A stretch of 35,067 nucleotides of DNA from Ruminococcus sp. GTDB lineage: Bacteria; Bacillota; Clostridia; Oscillospirales; Acutalibacteraceae. Below, in pieces: positions 10,719 through 15,985 of this stretch. The notes beneath the pieces were generated by a model. That model saw only the letters and a list, made by a program, of their open reading frames with translations, was not told the origin of the DNA and made no database searches. The stretch covers positions 1 through 35,067 of the forward strand of contig JAFQQF010000062.1 of the NCBI GenBank assembly GCA_017411385.1, read 5' to 3'. How positions within the stretch are numbered: position 1 is the first letter of the stretch; the number at the start of each line of letters is the position of its first letter. The translations under genes and the position numbers were made by a program.

Positions 10719-13358
10719 TTACGCATAATATATGTACTTAACCCATTCTTGAACATTACTGATATTACTTCCGCTAGGTGTTGTTTCAGATTCTAACTCT
10801 GTAGTTTTGCTATATTTGTATAGTTTTGAATATCGAGTATATGTTTGCTGATAAACAGGTATTTTATACCACCAATACGTGTCTTTGCAACAACTTGGAT
10901 AAGAGTATTGATATGCATCGGCACTAGAGTTATAAGATTTATTTGTATTACTTTGGAACGCATGGAAAGTGCCAAACTCACTACCTTTAACATTATCAAT
11001 CTTTCTATCAATCGGAGAAGATAAGGTTGCTCCTCTACACCAATGCCAATAAATATATGCTCTCTCTTGCGACGCTGAGTATACATATTTGTGTGTTTCA
11101 GTTTCATAATTACTCTTAGCACCTGTTGTTGAATGGAGACTATATAAATGATGTGAGGATAGAAAACCACTTGGATAGTTCGCATAAGAATGAGCCCCAT
11201 TTGTAAAGTCTTCCTTCCATTCGTAACCAGTCTGAGTCCAACCAGCCATAGAAGCACTTGAAGAAGTTGTTGTTTCAGTCACTGTGTAAGTATATTTTCT
11301 GTCTGTTATTTCAGCATCCTTTGGAACACTTGATGCTAATACCCAATCAGATTCTACTTTTGGAGCTATAGTGTAATCGTACAAAGTTCCACTACAATAA
11401 CAGCCTTTACCAATATCTGAAGCAAAATCATATTGAGCAATATATCTCTGAATTGTTGTTGCATCTATTATCGAGACTCGTTTATCAGAGTCAACATCAG
11501 CTTGTATCATTTCAAACTTATCGAATTTATTAATCGCTGCTATATGCATCTGTATTTTTGTAGCATCCAATACGCTTACCCTGTTATCGTGATCAAGGTC
11601 ACCATACATACGCCATTCTTCAACTTCAGTTACATCAACTTTCAATTTCATTGTTTCGCTTACACCGATCGGCAGATCATTACTGTCATAAGCTCTGACT
11701 TCAATTGTAAAAATTGATTTTCCCTGAACAATTGGTTTCCATACATAATTATGATAATCTTCAATAGTAGTTGTATACTCTACCTGAGCGCCATCTTCAG
11801 CATCAAAAAACTCATAATACGCAACATCATCAAGTTCTTCAAAGATGAAGTTAATACCATCATCTTCTTTCTGAATTATCACATCAAGTTCTTCAACTTC
11901 GTTTTCGTATTCACAGATGAAACCCAAAGAGTATGAACCATACATATTCATTACATCGTTCCACTTAAAGCTATCCTGAATGACTGTTGCATGATCCTCA
12001 AGTCCTAAGTAATTATTAGGCTCATCATCTCCCCAGTTGGAGTAAGAAATACTCTCACCAGTTACGCTCTTCCATTGTCCTTCAGTTTCGTGATCTGATA
12101 AACCCAACCAATAATTCGTTCTGCCACCTTTTGCAACGAGGCTATTAACAACATCTGCCTCTTCTTTTGAAGTTATTGTTACGAGATGTCCGCCAAGTTC
12201 CTCACACTTAGCTTTTGCCTCTGTCCAAGGCATAGCTATGTTGAATAGTTCATATCTCTTACCATCTACTATACTTTCTGCCGATGACTTGAATTCACCA
12301 GTAGTAACAGTGAAAGATACACCTGCACCAGATGTCCACCATCTATCAGTTTCTCGTAAAGAATTTTTTATAGATACCGGATATGCTATATAGTCACCCG
12401 CTGGAAGTTTAACCTGATAAGCCAAAGAAGTAACTCCAGTAGGATAACTAACTCTTTCACCAGTCGCTACATCGTAGATTTTCAACTCATACTCATCTGT
12501 ATTCTTTGCAGCATCCCAATAAAATTGTACATACTCAGCATCTGAGCCTGCCCTGACATTAAGGACAGGTGTAGCTGGATAACACTGGTCACATCCATCT
12601 TTTAATGATGTTTTTGAAGTGTTCACTTGTGTAGCTCCGCAAGAGCACTTTAGATACTCATAGTGTGGATGCTCTGTTGCATAATGAGAGTGTGTAGTAT
12701 AACTATGTGTGTGGTTACATGTAGTACAACTTGCAACATATGTAGGCTCGTTTCGATTTTCTTTTACTTCACCACAGGAGCATTTGTAGCACTTATAATG
12801 AGGGTGTGATGCCCAATAGTAAACATATGTATTATAATTGTGAACGTGAGGAGTATTGCCAAACTTTGGTCTTATGACACAAGCTATAGAAGTGCCAGCC
12901 CAAGACACTTTTTGTATTGCTGGTGGTCCAGGATGCTGTGTGACCATTTTCGCATTAAGTACGTTTGCATTATCTTCAACAATAATCGCAACATGACCTG
13001 CACTACCACCAGATGCAGTCCAACTCCATACAACAATATCACCTGGTTCTACATCCATACTAGAGGAATATGGAATTTTTTGCCAACCTTTTCCTTCTGG
13101 TAATGGTTTAGTTGCATATTCACTACCATTTCCTGAAATTGGTGTAACACCTAAAAAGCTATAATAAGCTCTAACCAGTGCAACACACCAACCATCTCCC
13201 TGTGTTTTTCCAACAACAGAATAAAGCCAATTAATCGCCTCAGCTTGTGTTGGAGCTCCTACTTCTGCTATATCTTTTTCAACAGCAAAAGTTGGCACAG
13301 CGAAAAACACGCTTGTCACCATAATAAAAGCTAGCAAAAGAGATATTGATTTTTTCAC
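10719..13358 (-). CDS. Secreted CHAP peptidase/amidase with Cys-rich repeats, C-type lectin and internal dockerin
   Basis: An 879-residue modular exported protein. A signal peptide occupies 1-25. A CHAP domain (about 35-165) has GDGWCVALVRAYY (Cys58) and GHVAIIVED (His122), the expected nucleophile and base for cleaving peptidoglycan amide bonds. Two 43-residue Cys/His repeats (about 171-260, each with CSCG then CxxC) look like zinc ribbons. An Ig/FN3-like module (262-352) precedes a C-type lectin domain (363-485) with Cys385/Cys482, WLGL, the calcium/sugar motif EPN at 446-448 and WND at 466-468. After a second beta module comes a dockerin (585-645), unusually not terminal, then 225 aromatic-rich residues (655-879) beginning SDWVLASSVPKDAEITDRKY. 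The start is GTG, 7 bases after AAGGAGG. The gene has a 225-nt leader with a terminator. A wall-directed, sugar-binding, complex-attached enzyme is inferred. Confidence 0.88.
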   Translation of the reverse strand: MKKSISLLLAFIMVTSVFFAVPTFAVEKDIAEVGAPTQAEAINWLYSVVGKTQGDGWCVALVRAYYSFLGVTPISGNGSEYATKPLPEGKGWQKIPYSSSMDVEPGDIVVWSWTASGGSAGHVAIIVEDNANVLNAKMVTQHPGPPAIQKVSWAGTSIACVIRPKFGNTPHVHNYNTYVYYWASHPHYKCYKCSCGEVKENRNEPTYVASCTTCNHTHSYTTHSHYATEHPHYEYLKCSCGATQVNTSKTSLKDGCDQCYPATPVLNVRAGSDAEYVQFYWDAAKNTDEYELKIYDVATGERVSYPTGVTSLAYQVKLPAGDYIAYPVSIKNSLRETDRWWTSGAGVSFTVTTGEFKSSAESIVDGKRYELFNIAMPWTEAKAKCEELGGHLVTITSKEEADVVNSLVAKGGRTNYWLGLSDHETEGQWKSVTGESISYSNWGDDEPNNYLGLEDHATVIQDSFKWNDVMNMYGSYSLGFICEYENEVEELDVIIQKEDDGINFIFEELDDVAYYEFFDAEDGAQVEYTTTIEDYHNYVWKPIVQGKSIFTIEVRAYDSNDLPIGVSETMKLKVDVTEVEEWRMYGDLDHDNRVSVLDATKIQMHIAAINKFDKFEMIQADVDSDKRVSIIDATTIQRYIAQYDFASDIGKGCYCSGTLYDYTIAPKVESDWVLASSVPKDAEITDRKYTYTVTETTTSSSASMAGWTQTGYEWKEDFTNGAHSYANYPSGFLSSHHLYSLHSTTGAKSNYETETHKYVYSASQERAYIYWHWCRGATLSSPIDRKIDNVKGSEFGTFHAFQSNTNKSYNSSADAYQYSYPSCCKDTYWWYKIPVYQQTYTRYSKLYKYSKTTELESETTPSGSNISNVQEWVKYIYYA

Positions 13359-13384
13359 AAAAATTCCTCCTTAAAAATAAAAAA

Positions 13385-13406
13385 TGCGCCTACCGAAGTA
13401 GACGCA
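13385..13406 (-). terminator. Leader terminator (attenuator) before the CHAP-lectin gene
   Basis: On the minus strand UGCGUCUAC pairs with GUAGGCGCA around a UUCG tetraloop closed by C-G, followed by UUUUUUAUUUUU. It lies between the promoter and the start codon and ends 16 bases before AAGGAGG. Bases CUUCGGUAG (13398-13390) can alternatively pair over 9 bp with CUAUCGGAG (13428-13420), disrupting it. Confidence 0.8.
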
Positions 13407-13419
13407 CAAAAAACGCAAA

Positions 13420-13584
13420 CTCCGATAGTCGCCAAACCAATTCAATATAAAGGGCAATAAGCACATCCATATTGTAGAATTTGCATTTTTATCAAATTCA
13501 GTATATGGACATGCATAAGAAAATATAACAATCCCTATAAAAAAACAGAAATTGCCCCTTATACTTATATTCAACTGGTTTGGC
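13420..13584 (-). ncRNA. Structured 5' leader RNA of unknown class
   Basis: From the predicted start at 13584 the RNA can fold into one long nested structure. The helices are 13584-13576 with 13439-13431 (9 bp), 13571-13565 with 13450-13444 (7 bp), 13557-13551 with 13458-13452 (7 bp), 13514-13503 with 13472-13461 (12 bp, two G-U) and 13499-13494 with 13482-13477 (6 bp). A 36-nt bulge lies on the 5' side. An antiterminator strand follows at 13428-13420. I cannot match it to T-box, c-di-GMP, cobalamin or other riboswitches that I know. A MITE or a 6S-like RNA are alternatives. Confidence 0.55.
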
Positions 13585-13590
13585 ACTTTC

Positions 13591-13619
13591 ATCATAACAT
13601 AGGAGTAACGTAAAATCAA
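13591..13619 (-). promoter_or_regulatory. Sigma-A promoter of the CHAP-lectin-dockerin leader
   Basis: On the minus strand TTGATT (13619-13614), a 17-bp spacer and TATGAT (13596-13591). The predicted start near 13584 coincides with the first base of the outermost leader helix. Confidence 0.75.
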
Positions 13620-13628
13620 CACAAAAAA

Positions 13629-13671
13629 TTAGACCCATCATCAAGGAAAATCTCCAAAATGATGGGTCTAA
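13629..13671 (-). terminator. Hairpin terminator, third in a series
   Basis: A perfect 13-bp inverted repeat (13629-13641 with 13659-13671) with a 17-nt loop, followed on the minus strand by TTTTTTGT. It would stop read-through from the GGGtGRT operon just upstream of the CHAP-gene promoter. Confidence 0.7.
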
Positions 13672-13818: not shown

Positions 13819-14820
13819 TTATTTCATTGCGTTGTAAACTGCAACAGCACAAGCAACTGTAGCACCAACCATTGGGTTGTTGCCCATACCGATCAAGCCC
13901 ATCATTTCGACATGGGCTGGAACTGATGAAGAACCAGCAAACTGAGCGTCACCGTGCATTCTGCCCATTGTGTCTGTAAGACCGTATGAAGCAGGACCAG
14001 CAGCCATGTTGTCTGGATGGAGTGTACGGCCTGTACCGCCACCACTAGCTACTGAGAAGTACTTAACGCCGTTTTCAAGCGCCCACTTCTTGTATGTACC
14101 TGCAACTGGGTGCTGGAAACGAGTTGGGTTAGTTGAGTTACCTGTGATAGATACACCAACGTTTTCAAACTGCATGATAGCAACGCCTTCTCTAACATCG
14201 TCAGCGCCGTAGCAACGAACAGCAGCTCTCTCGCCCTCTGAGAATGCTTTCTCAGAAACGATTTTGAGCTCGCCTGTGAAGTAATCAAACTCTGTCTCAA
14301 CAAATGTGAAACCGTTGATTCTTGAGATAATGTAAGCAGCGTCTTTACCAAGACCGTTAAGGATAACTCTTAAAGGCTCTTTTCTAGCCTTGTTAGCGTT
14401 TCTTGCGATACCGATAGCACCTTCAGCAGCAGCGAATGACTCGTGACCAGCTAAGAACGCAAAGCACTTTGTCTCTTCTCTAAGGAGCATTGCGCCGAGG
14501 TTACCGTGACCGCGACCAACAGCTCTCTGCTCAGCAACTGAACCAGGGATACAGAAAGCCTCTAAGCCTTCACCGATAGCTTCAGCAGCATCAGCAGCAG
14601 TTGTAACACCCTTCTTGATTGCAACAGCGCAACCGAGAGTGTAAGCCCAACCAGCGTTTTCAAACGCGATTGGCTGAACTTCTTTAACGATGTCATATGG
14701 GTTGAAACCCTTATCTGTACAAATCTGTAAAGCCTCTTCGAGATTAGCGATACCATACTGAGCAAGGCACTTCTCGATTTTAGGCATTCTTCTTTCCATG
14801 CTTTCAAATTTAACTGCCAT
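13819..14820 (-). CDS. GGGtGRT protein, function unknown, paired with NifU-like scaffold
   Basis: A 333-residue cytoplasmic protein recognised by the eponymous motif ASGGGTGRTLHPD near residue 258. Other conserved-looking blocks are RGHGNLGAMLLREETKCFAFLAGHESFAA, the Asn/Gly-rich NSTNPTRFQHPVAGTYKKWA and the C-terminal MGLIGMGNNPMVGATVACAVAVYNA. It has no signal peptide. Full length is about 330 residues, so it appears intact. The gene lies 18 bp after a NifU-like scaffold gene with a good AAGGAGG site, an arrangement that recurs in anaerobes. The conserved pairing suggests work on an iron-sulfur cluster or sulfur-related substrate, but no reaction is established to my knowledge. Confidence 0.88.
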   Translation of the reverse strand: MAVKFESMERRMPKIEKCLAQYGIANLEEALQICTDKGFNPYDIVKEVQPIAFENAGWAYTLGCAVAIKKGVTTAADAAEAIGEGLEAFCIPGSVAEQRAVGRGHGNLGAMLLREETKCFAFLAGHESFAAAEGAIGIARNANKARKEPLRVILNGLGKDAAYIISRINGFTFVETEFDYFTGELKIVSEKAFSEGERAAVRCYGADDVREGVAIMQFENVGVSITGNSTNPTRFQHPVAGTYKKWALENGVKYFSVASGGGTGRTLHPDNMAAGPASYGLTDTMGRMHGDAQFAGSSSVPAHVEMMGLIGMGNNPMVGATVACAVAVYNAMK

Positions 14821-15718: not shown

Positions 15719-15985
15719 TAAATTGTAATTTAGTGAACCACCAATCGTAGGGGCGATTCACGAATTGCCCGCCGTGCGTAGCACCAACAGGACTACAAAT
15801 CAGGCTTCCCCTGTTTTTATCAGGGGAGGCTCCGCCGTAGGCGGTGGTGAGGTAAAAACGCTTGATAACAGCAATGCAATTGATTGAGCACCAACGTTTT
15901 CAACCTCATCCGTCACCTAACGGTGCCACCTTCCCCATTCTCGGGGAAGGCTTTACGTTTCGTTAATTAACTAAACTATAATTTA
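15719..15985. repeat. MITE-like composite intergenic repeat
   Basis: The 267-bp block is non-coding. Its ends are 16-bp imperfect inverted repeats (15719-15734 and 15970-15985, 14/16 matching). Inside are a GGGCGATTC/GAATTGCCC hairpin (15751-15770) and two related arms in inverted orientation, each made of a CCCC/GGGG hairpin followed by a CCGCC- or CACCG-type hairpin and GAGG (15802-15852 and 15904-15953). No transposase is present. It looks like a dispersed non-autonomous element of a kind common in gut clostridia; copy number elsewhere is unknown. Confidence 0.65.

Follow-up and report, generated by a model that had tools for sequence, protein, structure and literature searches.

What kind of RNA stands ahead of the gene for a large CHAP-lectin-dockerin protein in this Ruminococcus sp. 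genome? The stretch of DNA analyzed, here called the window, is 35,067 nucleotides long and carries this gene on its minus strand. The original prediction placed an unclassified structured leader RNA in front of the gene, a description that holds and is reinforced by hundreds of relatives, by covariation in both the P1 helix and the antiterminator, and by the lack of any corresponding Rfam family. The prediction covered positions 13384 through 13619 of the window. Its parts, followed by the ribosome binding site and the gene, are as follows.

13614..13619, minus strand: -35 element TTGATT, read from the sequence
13591..13596, minus strand: -10 element TATGAT, separated from the -35 element by a 17-nucleotide spacer
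13573..13584, minus strand: helix P1, 5′ strand GCCAAACCAGTT, at the predicted transcription start (fold and covariation)
13503..13514, minus strand: upper arm, 5′ strand (fold; sequence variable among relatives)
13477..13499, minus strand: apical hairpin GAATTTG-loop-CAAATTC, which holds beta (fold; present in close relatives)
13476..13490, minus strand: beta strand AAAAATGCAAATTCT, A-rich, inner, the pseudoknot partner (15-bp complementarity to alpha')
13461..13472, minus strand: upper arm, 3′ strand (fold)
13431..13442, minus strand: helix P1, 3′ strand AATTGGTTTGGC (covariation)
13424..13430, minus strand: linker GACTATC between P1 and alpha' (consensus RAC[A/T]ATC)
13420..13428, minus strand: antiterminator, 5′ strand CTATCGGAG, complementary to CTTCGGTAG (covariation)
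13409..13423, minus strand: alpha' GGAGTTTGCGTTTTT, which can pair with beta or, via its 5′ part, with the terminator
13390..13398, minus strand: antiterminator, 3′ strand CTTCGGTAG, which is also the terminator loop and its flanks
13385..13406, minus strand: intrinsic terminator hairpin TGCGTCTAC-TTCG-GTAGGCGCA, with a UUCG loop and then a U run
13366..13372, minus strand: Shine-Dalgarno site AAGGAGG, downstream of the T run of the terminator
10719..13358, minus strand: proposed regulated gene, GTG start at 13358, 879 amino acids, with CHAP, C-type lectin and dockerin I domains and an N-terminus that looks by eye to be of the secreted type

The promoter originally proposed, TTGATT-17-TATGAT with a start at 13584, matches the minus strand at its assigned positions, and the sequence GCCAAAC begins at 13584, which is 7 bases past the last base of the -10 element in the minus-strand reading. 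The nested fold said to begin at this nucleotide does close there, but comprises 53 pairs up to the 3′ end of P1 rather than 41. The 205-nucleotide leader (13584-13380) has a folding energy of -77.4 kcal/mol, compared to -41.7 (sd 3.9) for 200 shuffled sequences (z -9.2), none of which folds as well. Likewise, the C(UUCG)G terminator (13406-13385) is followed by a long U-run and lies ahead of the ribosome binding site as had been described, and the complementarity of the 9-bp antiterminator (13428-13420 with 13398-13390) was confirmed and is accompanied by covariation among relatives. Thus, P1, the antiterminator and the terminator had been placed correctly, but the earlier list of helices did not include a pseudoknot. 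This 15-bp pairing, found beyond the nested fold, joins beta (13476-13490) to alpha' (13409-13423) and gives the antiterminator strand a second partner; the last bases of the linker also take part in the antiterminator. Because alpha' forms part of both structures, pseudoknot and antiterminator should be mutually exclusive.

From these sequence comparisons, it seems quite probable that the element is a cis-acting transcription attenuator in which a pseudoknot serves as an anti-antiterminator, and that it belongs to a class absent from Rfam 15. In the mechanism we propose, RNA polymerase would start at 13584, and the 5′ end of the RNA would pair with a later strand to form P1, such that beta is presented in the apical hairpin. 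Invasion of beta by alpha' would form the pseudoknot and leave the terminator unblocked, and transcription would stop before the gene (off). If beta is instead held closed, alpha' would pair with the terminator strand to form the antiterminator, and polymerase would read through into the gene (on). The two pairings would exclude each other in time. Because transcription yields beta first, alpha' next and the terminator strand last, the pseudoknot would get the first chance, and the default state would probably be off. A signal that keeps beta closed would turn the gene on, and one common signal, be it a ligand, a protein or polymerase speed, may tip the balance for many genes, often those of exported proteins. 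In the fold strings of many elements, the A-rich half of beta is paired with a U-rich 5′ strand whereas its GCUC half is free, and this free half would act as a toehold. The RNA presumably adopts a fold-back geometry, with a bulge or a side hairpin in the 5′ arm.

Nearest-neighbor sums cover 83 of 106 elements. On its own, the terminator is 1.7 kcal/mol less stable than the best fold of the tail. Freeing beta costs 6.7 kcal/mol and the pseudoknot gains 16.7 kcal/mol, which, with no loop penalty subtracted, puts the pseudoknot state 6.5 kcal/mol below the best nested fold. As modeled, the switch is balanced within the error of such sums. The intrinsic terminator before the gene and the mutually exclusive, covarying antiterminator are features of a transcription attenuator, and covarying secondary structure in the leaders of many genes (83 proteins, 63 Pfam families) is a feature of riboswitches. 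No ligand pocket is evident in the element, which counts against an attenuator. Sequence conservation outside the helices is small except in the linker, where C occurs at position 3 in 95 of 96 elements and A at position 5 in 93 of 96.

The pairings on which this mechanism depends were evaluated among the relatives, and the compensatory changes whose absence the original prediction said would speak against it are present in the related leaders. For P1, 97.2% of cells are paired and 8 of 12 pairs show double changes (24 sequences), as evident from variants such as GCCAAAC/GUUUGGC, GCUACAC/GUGUAGC and GCGACA/UGUCGC. In alignment A1 (24 sequences), 92.4% of pseudoknot cells are paired, compared to 32.6-65.7% in slid registers, and 7 of 15 pairs are double-changed. 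The corresponding values for the antiterminator are 91.5% versus 33.9-46.5%, with 4 of 10 pairs double-changed. These slid-register controls carry the most weight, and shuffle tests overstate significance for related sequences: among 500 shuffles of A1, the count of double-changed pairs was reached by 9 for the pseudoknot and 4 for the antiterminator, the count of further pair types by 35 and 32, respectively, and the remaining three measures by none for either helix. Of the listed pseudoknot pairs, the one between columns 46 and 84 is broken in 8 of its 11 cells. The A/T core of the pseudoknot hardly varies and hence provides no evidence for pairing, and part of the complementarity of beta is expected anyway because many inner hairpins have a U-rich 5′ strand that alpha' resembles. 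Pseudoknot counts were taken from A1 and from anchored counts, since the model alignment A2 places beta wrongly in some rows.

The anchored counts, for which the register was fixed by the A run and the T run, cover 136 elements (22 of 158 were dropped). The four varying pseudoknot positions pair in 88.8% of cases, compared to 82.6% (sd 0.8) after shuffling. At the first of these positions the pair is UG in 72 elements, CG in 33 and UA in 22, with 9 unpaired; at the second it is GC in 63, AU in 41 and GU in 19, with 13 unpaired. Duplex energies were calculated for a set of 106 elements, which was also used for the promoter analysis (two of 108 were dropped, one lacking a T run and one a duplicate). 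The duplex of alpha' with the body of its own element averages -17.2 kcal/mol, versus -14.3 for the bodies of other elements and -9.5 for shuffled bodies. The own duplex has a z score below -2 in 96% of elements, and its average was matched by none of 2000 permutations; for an average element, however, alpha' finds a better partner than its own body in 21.5% of the bodies of other elements. The antiterminator duplex likewise favors the own partner (-14.8 versus -12.6; 0 of 2000 permutations as good). The divergent element L308, found in another genome, retains P1 (-19.2), the pseudoknot (-17.9) and the antiterminator (-14.3) with other letters.

How widespread is this RNA? A DNA search of the source genome yielded one full match plus short, chance-like ones, and the same type of search detected matches in 40 of 150 genomes of the genus (E≤0.001). 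The relatives share a common anatomy: a sigma-70-type promoter, a GCCAAAC-type 5′ strand, variable arms, beta, the P1 3′ strand, alpha', the terminator and a Shine-Dalgarno site. Beta reads AAAAAYRC..GCUC or AAAAAUGCAAAUUCC, the linker and alpha' read RAC[A/T]AUCGGAG..UGYGUUUUU, and the terminator usually carries CUUCGG. At least five T residues follow the terminator region in 135 of 136 elements. A covariance model built from 24 shortened sequences (R1) matches 116 of 161 genomes of the genus and 148 of 398 genomes of the family, the latter representing 61 of 135 genera (both E≤0.01). At E≤0.001, it matches 96 of 295 genomes of the order, 75 of 291 of the class and, in a draw from the phylum, 1 of 299, which is the source genome itself. 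Some members of the same order and class were among the genomes of the phylum draw and had no matches; this draw doubles as a specificity control. The genome counts are likely to be low due to the strict filters and the few candidates scored. A pattern scan of species genomes found at least 120 stretches, and R1 matched 75 of 80 and 37 of 40 of these. Named sources are mostly gut MAGs from goat, sheep, deer, buffalo, yak, rabbit and others; a named strain, Pumilibacter intestinalis CLA-AA-M10 (L162), carries the element and may offer a cultured carrier.

Some loci deviate from the common anatomy. L022 has only the terminator half, located behind another hairpin, L033 has a short hairpin in place of the long one together with an alpha'-like tail, and L038 has the front half without the tail. 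These three partial relatives were not entered in the element set, nor were L010, L103 and several duplicate loci, and L040, L057 and L065 were left out for want of a recognized tail. A side hairpin of the form GGG..TATACCC-TTTT occurs in the 5′ arm of 16 of the 57 elements that have beta in its own loop, compared to 2 of 79 others and 0 of 136 shuffled sequences. By eye, this hairpin with its T run resembles a miniature terminator or pause site (L143, L136, L093).

Elements also occur in viral DNA, including the phage record MT835503.1 (L290 398-533; R1 match) and 5 of 51 pattern-positive viral contigs, three of which show one identical element. A phage origin was considered and rejected, and these occurrences are taken as carriage. 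With weak Pfam support, the genes downstream are zinc-ribbon-like at the viral-contig loci L190, L212 and L222 and lipoprotein-like at L214 and L223.

The element is a unit that begins with its promoter and leads into a gene. Promoters could be assessed in 94 of the 106 elements (ten had a poorly placed P1, and two lay too near a contig end). A TAnnnT box at -14 to -10 relative to P1 is present in all 94, compared to 8.6% of controls; it starts at -12 in 82 elements, at -13 in 11 and at -11 in one. A -35 sequence matching at least four of six positions at a spacing of 16-19 is found in 69 of the 94, and the consensus is TTGA - 17 - TGnTATAAT. Because the distance to the -10 box stays within a three-base window, and P1 was placed without regard to the promoter, P1 is predicted to start at or next to the first transcribed base.

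At the other end, an ORF starts within 40 nucleotides of the match end at 84 of 126 loci, compared to 9.7% of controls, and a Shine-Dalgarno-like site precedes 83 of these 84. Within 100 nucleotides, the values are 103 of 126 versus 20.2%. Of 122 downstream ORFs, 93 were retained for examination of N-termini. By a simple rule, 56 of the 93 have signal-like N-termini and 18 have a lipobox, compared to 12.6% and 3.1% of 604 control ORFs, an enrichment that is overstated because the control ORFs were called mechanically on both strands and include non-genes. The genes behind the element often appear to encode exported proteins. A Pfam scan of 83 of the 93 proteins matched 63 families in all, and the 25 of these that were listed include LRR_5 (BspA-type repeats; 16), LRR_8 (10), zinc ribbon (5), dockerin (4), Big_2 (4) and AMP-binding (3). 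Near the leader of one AMP-binding enzyme gene, about 0.2 kb away, lies a Gut-1 RNA (RF01706; L014 1861-1937) as a separate feature.

Copy number differs greatly among genomes. Six chosen genomes hold 16, 17, 28, 1, 23 and 12 copies (R1, E≤0.05), and the source genome holds one even at E≤1. Complete promoter-RNA-terminator units can be arrayed, with five in 1 kb at L021 (1-1080, G131:C19) and three at L037. The tandem arrays at L021, L269 and L272 comprise four to five complete units whose pseudoknot and antiterminator codes diverge. Because the array loci were chosen for holding neighboring hits, they give no array frequency. SLOG-family genes lie behind L021, L269 and L308 (YpsA for the first two), and a gene for a helix-turn-helix protein lies behind the L272 array. 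Among array copies, alpha', beta and the terminator all change together: one copy in the L269 array has alpha' GAAGCU, beta AGCUUC and terminator AGCUUCGG, and the next-but-one copy has AAAGCC, GGCUUU and GGCUUU. The pseudoknot helix spans about 13-16 bp, and the antiterminator is weak in some copies (-8.3, and -7.2 in the L269 array). Within arrays, alpha' and beta of the same copy pair at -15.4 (n=52), compared to -12.9 between neighbors (n=94), as judged from the first 52 of 59 matches and with P1 misassigned in a few (L282, L288, L274, L269).

These arrays bear on an alternative in which each unit is an independent gene for a trans-acting small RNA: promoter, blunt 5′ helix and terminator would yield a stable RNA of ~200 nucleotides that acts, for example, by pairing its free beta with alpha' of other copies, its nearness to genes being secondary. 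In favor of this view, 94 of 94 units have their own promoter and 135 of 136 have a T run after the terminator region; moreover, the arrays repeat the whole unit and so contain upstream copies with no gene directly behind them, and alpha'-beta pairs across elements are also strong (-14.3 on average). However, ORF starts lie within 40 nucleotides far more often than in the control, the antiterminator covaries although it is useful for read-through only, and pairs within an array copy are better than pairs between neighbors. Because own array pairs fit better, we prefer action in cis, and we judge a trans-acting small RNA to be unlikely, with some probability left to it by the repetition of whole units in arrays. 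A regulatory protein is a different matter, since protein control would be a sub-case of the attenuator rather than a replacement for it. A regulator could bind P1 and its junction, or the RAC[A/T]A linker, and thereby stabilize either state. Hardly any variation is seen in the linker, in contrast to the arms, and one leader is common to many unrelated genes, as in the regulon of a single RNA-binding regulator. Even so, we consider this version rather doubtful.

The original prediction also allowed for a MITE, and more generally the inverted ends of a dispersed DNA repeat might merely mimic an RNA helix. The inverted repeat is indeed long and near-perfect, some genomes have many copies, and presence at one site varies between related genomes. 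Nevertheless, the source genome has no second copy at E≤1, and 84 of 126 related elements have an ORF start within 40 nucleotides, which disfavors this view. Dispersed near-identical copies unrelated to genes were not seen, a comparison made among array copies, of which the most alike pair within one genome is 88.6% identical over at least 120 nucleotides (52 copies, overlapping L282 calls excluded). In addition, promoter, pseudoknot, antiterminator, terminator and ribosome site keep a conserved order, with covariation. We therefore regard a mobile repeat as very improbable. Ribosome-mediated attenuation through a leader peptide would also place a terminator/antiterminator pair ahead of a gene, and the window has an 83-amino-acid ORF that by coincidence runs across the element. 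However, a closed ORF with a Shine-Dalgarno site is found in 7 of 96 leaders compared to 13 of 96 shuffled ones (the shuffled scan being slightly looser), and an early ribosome site would have no space ahead of P1, which begins at the predicted first base. This mechanism is accordingly exceedingly improbable.

How does the element, read as a pseudoknot-controlled attenuator, compare with known RNAs? The Rfam scan that the original prediction had suggested revealed no family at the element or recurring in the related loci searched. In the window, no Rfam 15 model matches the element at its gathering score, and the sub-threshold matches over it (mir-4875, SR6 antitoxin, MIR447) are far below gathering scores and come from unrelated models. 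The window and 20 related loci together gave only three tRNAs and one separate Gut-1 RNA; 15 further loci gave, at E≤0.5, two tRNAs and six weak, scattered matches, with no recurrent family. 6S RNA is a long interrupted hairpin of about 200 nucleotides with its own promoter, a description that also fits the element. However, the element is multicopy in relatives and leads into genes, and the suggestion that it might be 6S RNA was rejected: RF00013 does not match it, and the genome has a 6S RNA at another location (72.8 bits, above the cut-off).

The preQ1-I, fluoride (crcB) and ZTP (pfl) riboswitches can terminate transcription and have a pseudoknot in the sensing domain. Like these RNAs, the element is a 5′ leader that stands before several genes and sets a pseudoknot against an antiterminator for one strand beside an intrinsic terminator. 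Unlike them, it lacks an Rfam match and an evident conserved aptamer core, its pseudoknot is long (about 13-16 bp) and varies in sequence with its partner, its promoter lies within the conserved unit, and its targets come from many families, frequently with the look of exported proteins. ToxIN-type (type III) loci consist of a tandem pseudoknot RNA, an intrinsic terminator and a gene with its own Shine-Dalgarno site. The element has a similar set of parts, including tandem copies, but each copy has its own promoter and terminator and the downstream genes are diverse; no toxin is present among the 25 listed of the 63 Pfam families, although 2 of the 83 proteins contain a MazE/AbrB-type domain.

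Earlier comparative work has revealed other structured RNAs in gut bacteria that remain unexplained, among them Gut-1 (RF01706) and Clostridiales-1 (RF01699) (PMC2864571). The element resembles them in these respects, but both are in Rfam and neither matches it. Our search of the published literature, including the conserved 14-mer, found no description of the element. The portions of PMC2864571, PMC8040213 and PMC8632094 consulted do not describe it, and none of the terms looked for occurs in PMC11109978. The 3161 candidates from human microbiomes in the supplementary tables of PMC8040213 may include the element unnamed.

A leader present in about a quarter of the class genomes drawn (75 of 291), with up to 28 copies per genome and no match in Rfam 15, would rank among the larger uncatalogued regulatory RNA classes. 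It would offer a handle on the control of surface and secreted-protein genes in hardly studied gut and rumen bacteria, and the proposed competition between pseudoknot and antiterminator is specified base by base and is thus directly testable. It looks unusual for complete units to stand in tandem while their pairing codes diverge, and such repeats might serve to tune dose or threshold. Tentatively, as a plausible extension that we would not yet call probable, the element may represent a major class of orphan regulatory RNAs in gut Clostridia that have been little studied. A fold-back junction, its loop strand locked by a pseudoknot of ~15 bp, would read one common signal and thereby control whole batteries of genes, many of which encode exported proteins (BspA-type repeats, dockerin proteins, lipoproteins). 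Promoter, RNA, terminator and ribosome site would form a portable unit that has been duplicated into arrays and re-used before unrelated genes, with copies drifting to private pseudoknot codes that insulate them from their neighbors.

At one chromosomal site, behind the GGGtGRT gene, the leader stands ahead of different genes: the CHAP gene in the source genome and in G099, one of BspA type in G011 (L309/L013) and one of the SLOG family in G055 (L308). It was undetected at the other 26 of 29 neighbor loci searched, which were taken as the best among matches in 135 genomes, the own locus uncounted. Among 12 loci encoding homologs of the N-terminal 353 amino acids of the CHAP protein, the source genome again uncounted, four have an R1 match within the stretch. 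Therefore, from the different genes found at one site and from these homolog loci, leader and gene seem to have been re-combined over time.

Three further observations concern the surroundings of the element. The GGGtGRT gene (window 13819-14820) has a second copy in the same genome that is 92% identical (G000:C43:197600-198598). Just upstream of the promoter, at 13629-13671, AGACCCATCA..TGATGGGTCT forms a strong predicted hairpin that has a T run; a similar hairpin occupies the same site in G011, and related pieces are found in G115 and G055. Finally, a GC-richer palindromic stretch between genes at about 15770-15960 of the window (CCCCGAGAATGGGGAAGGTGGCACCG...) has, by eye, the look of a dispersed repeat.
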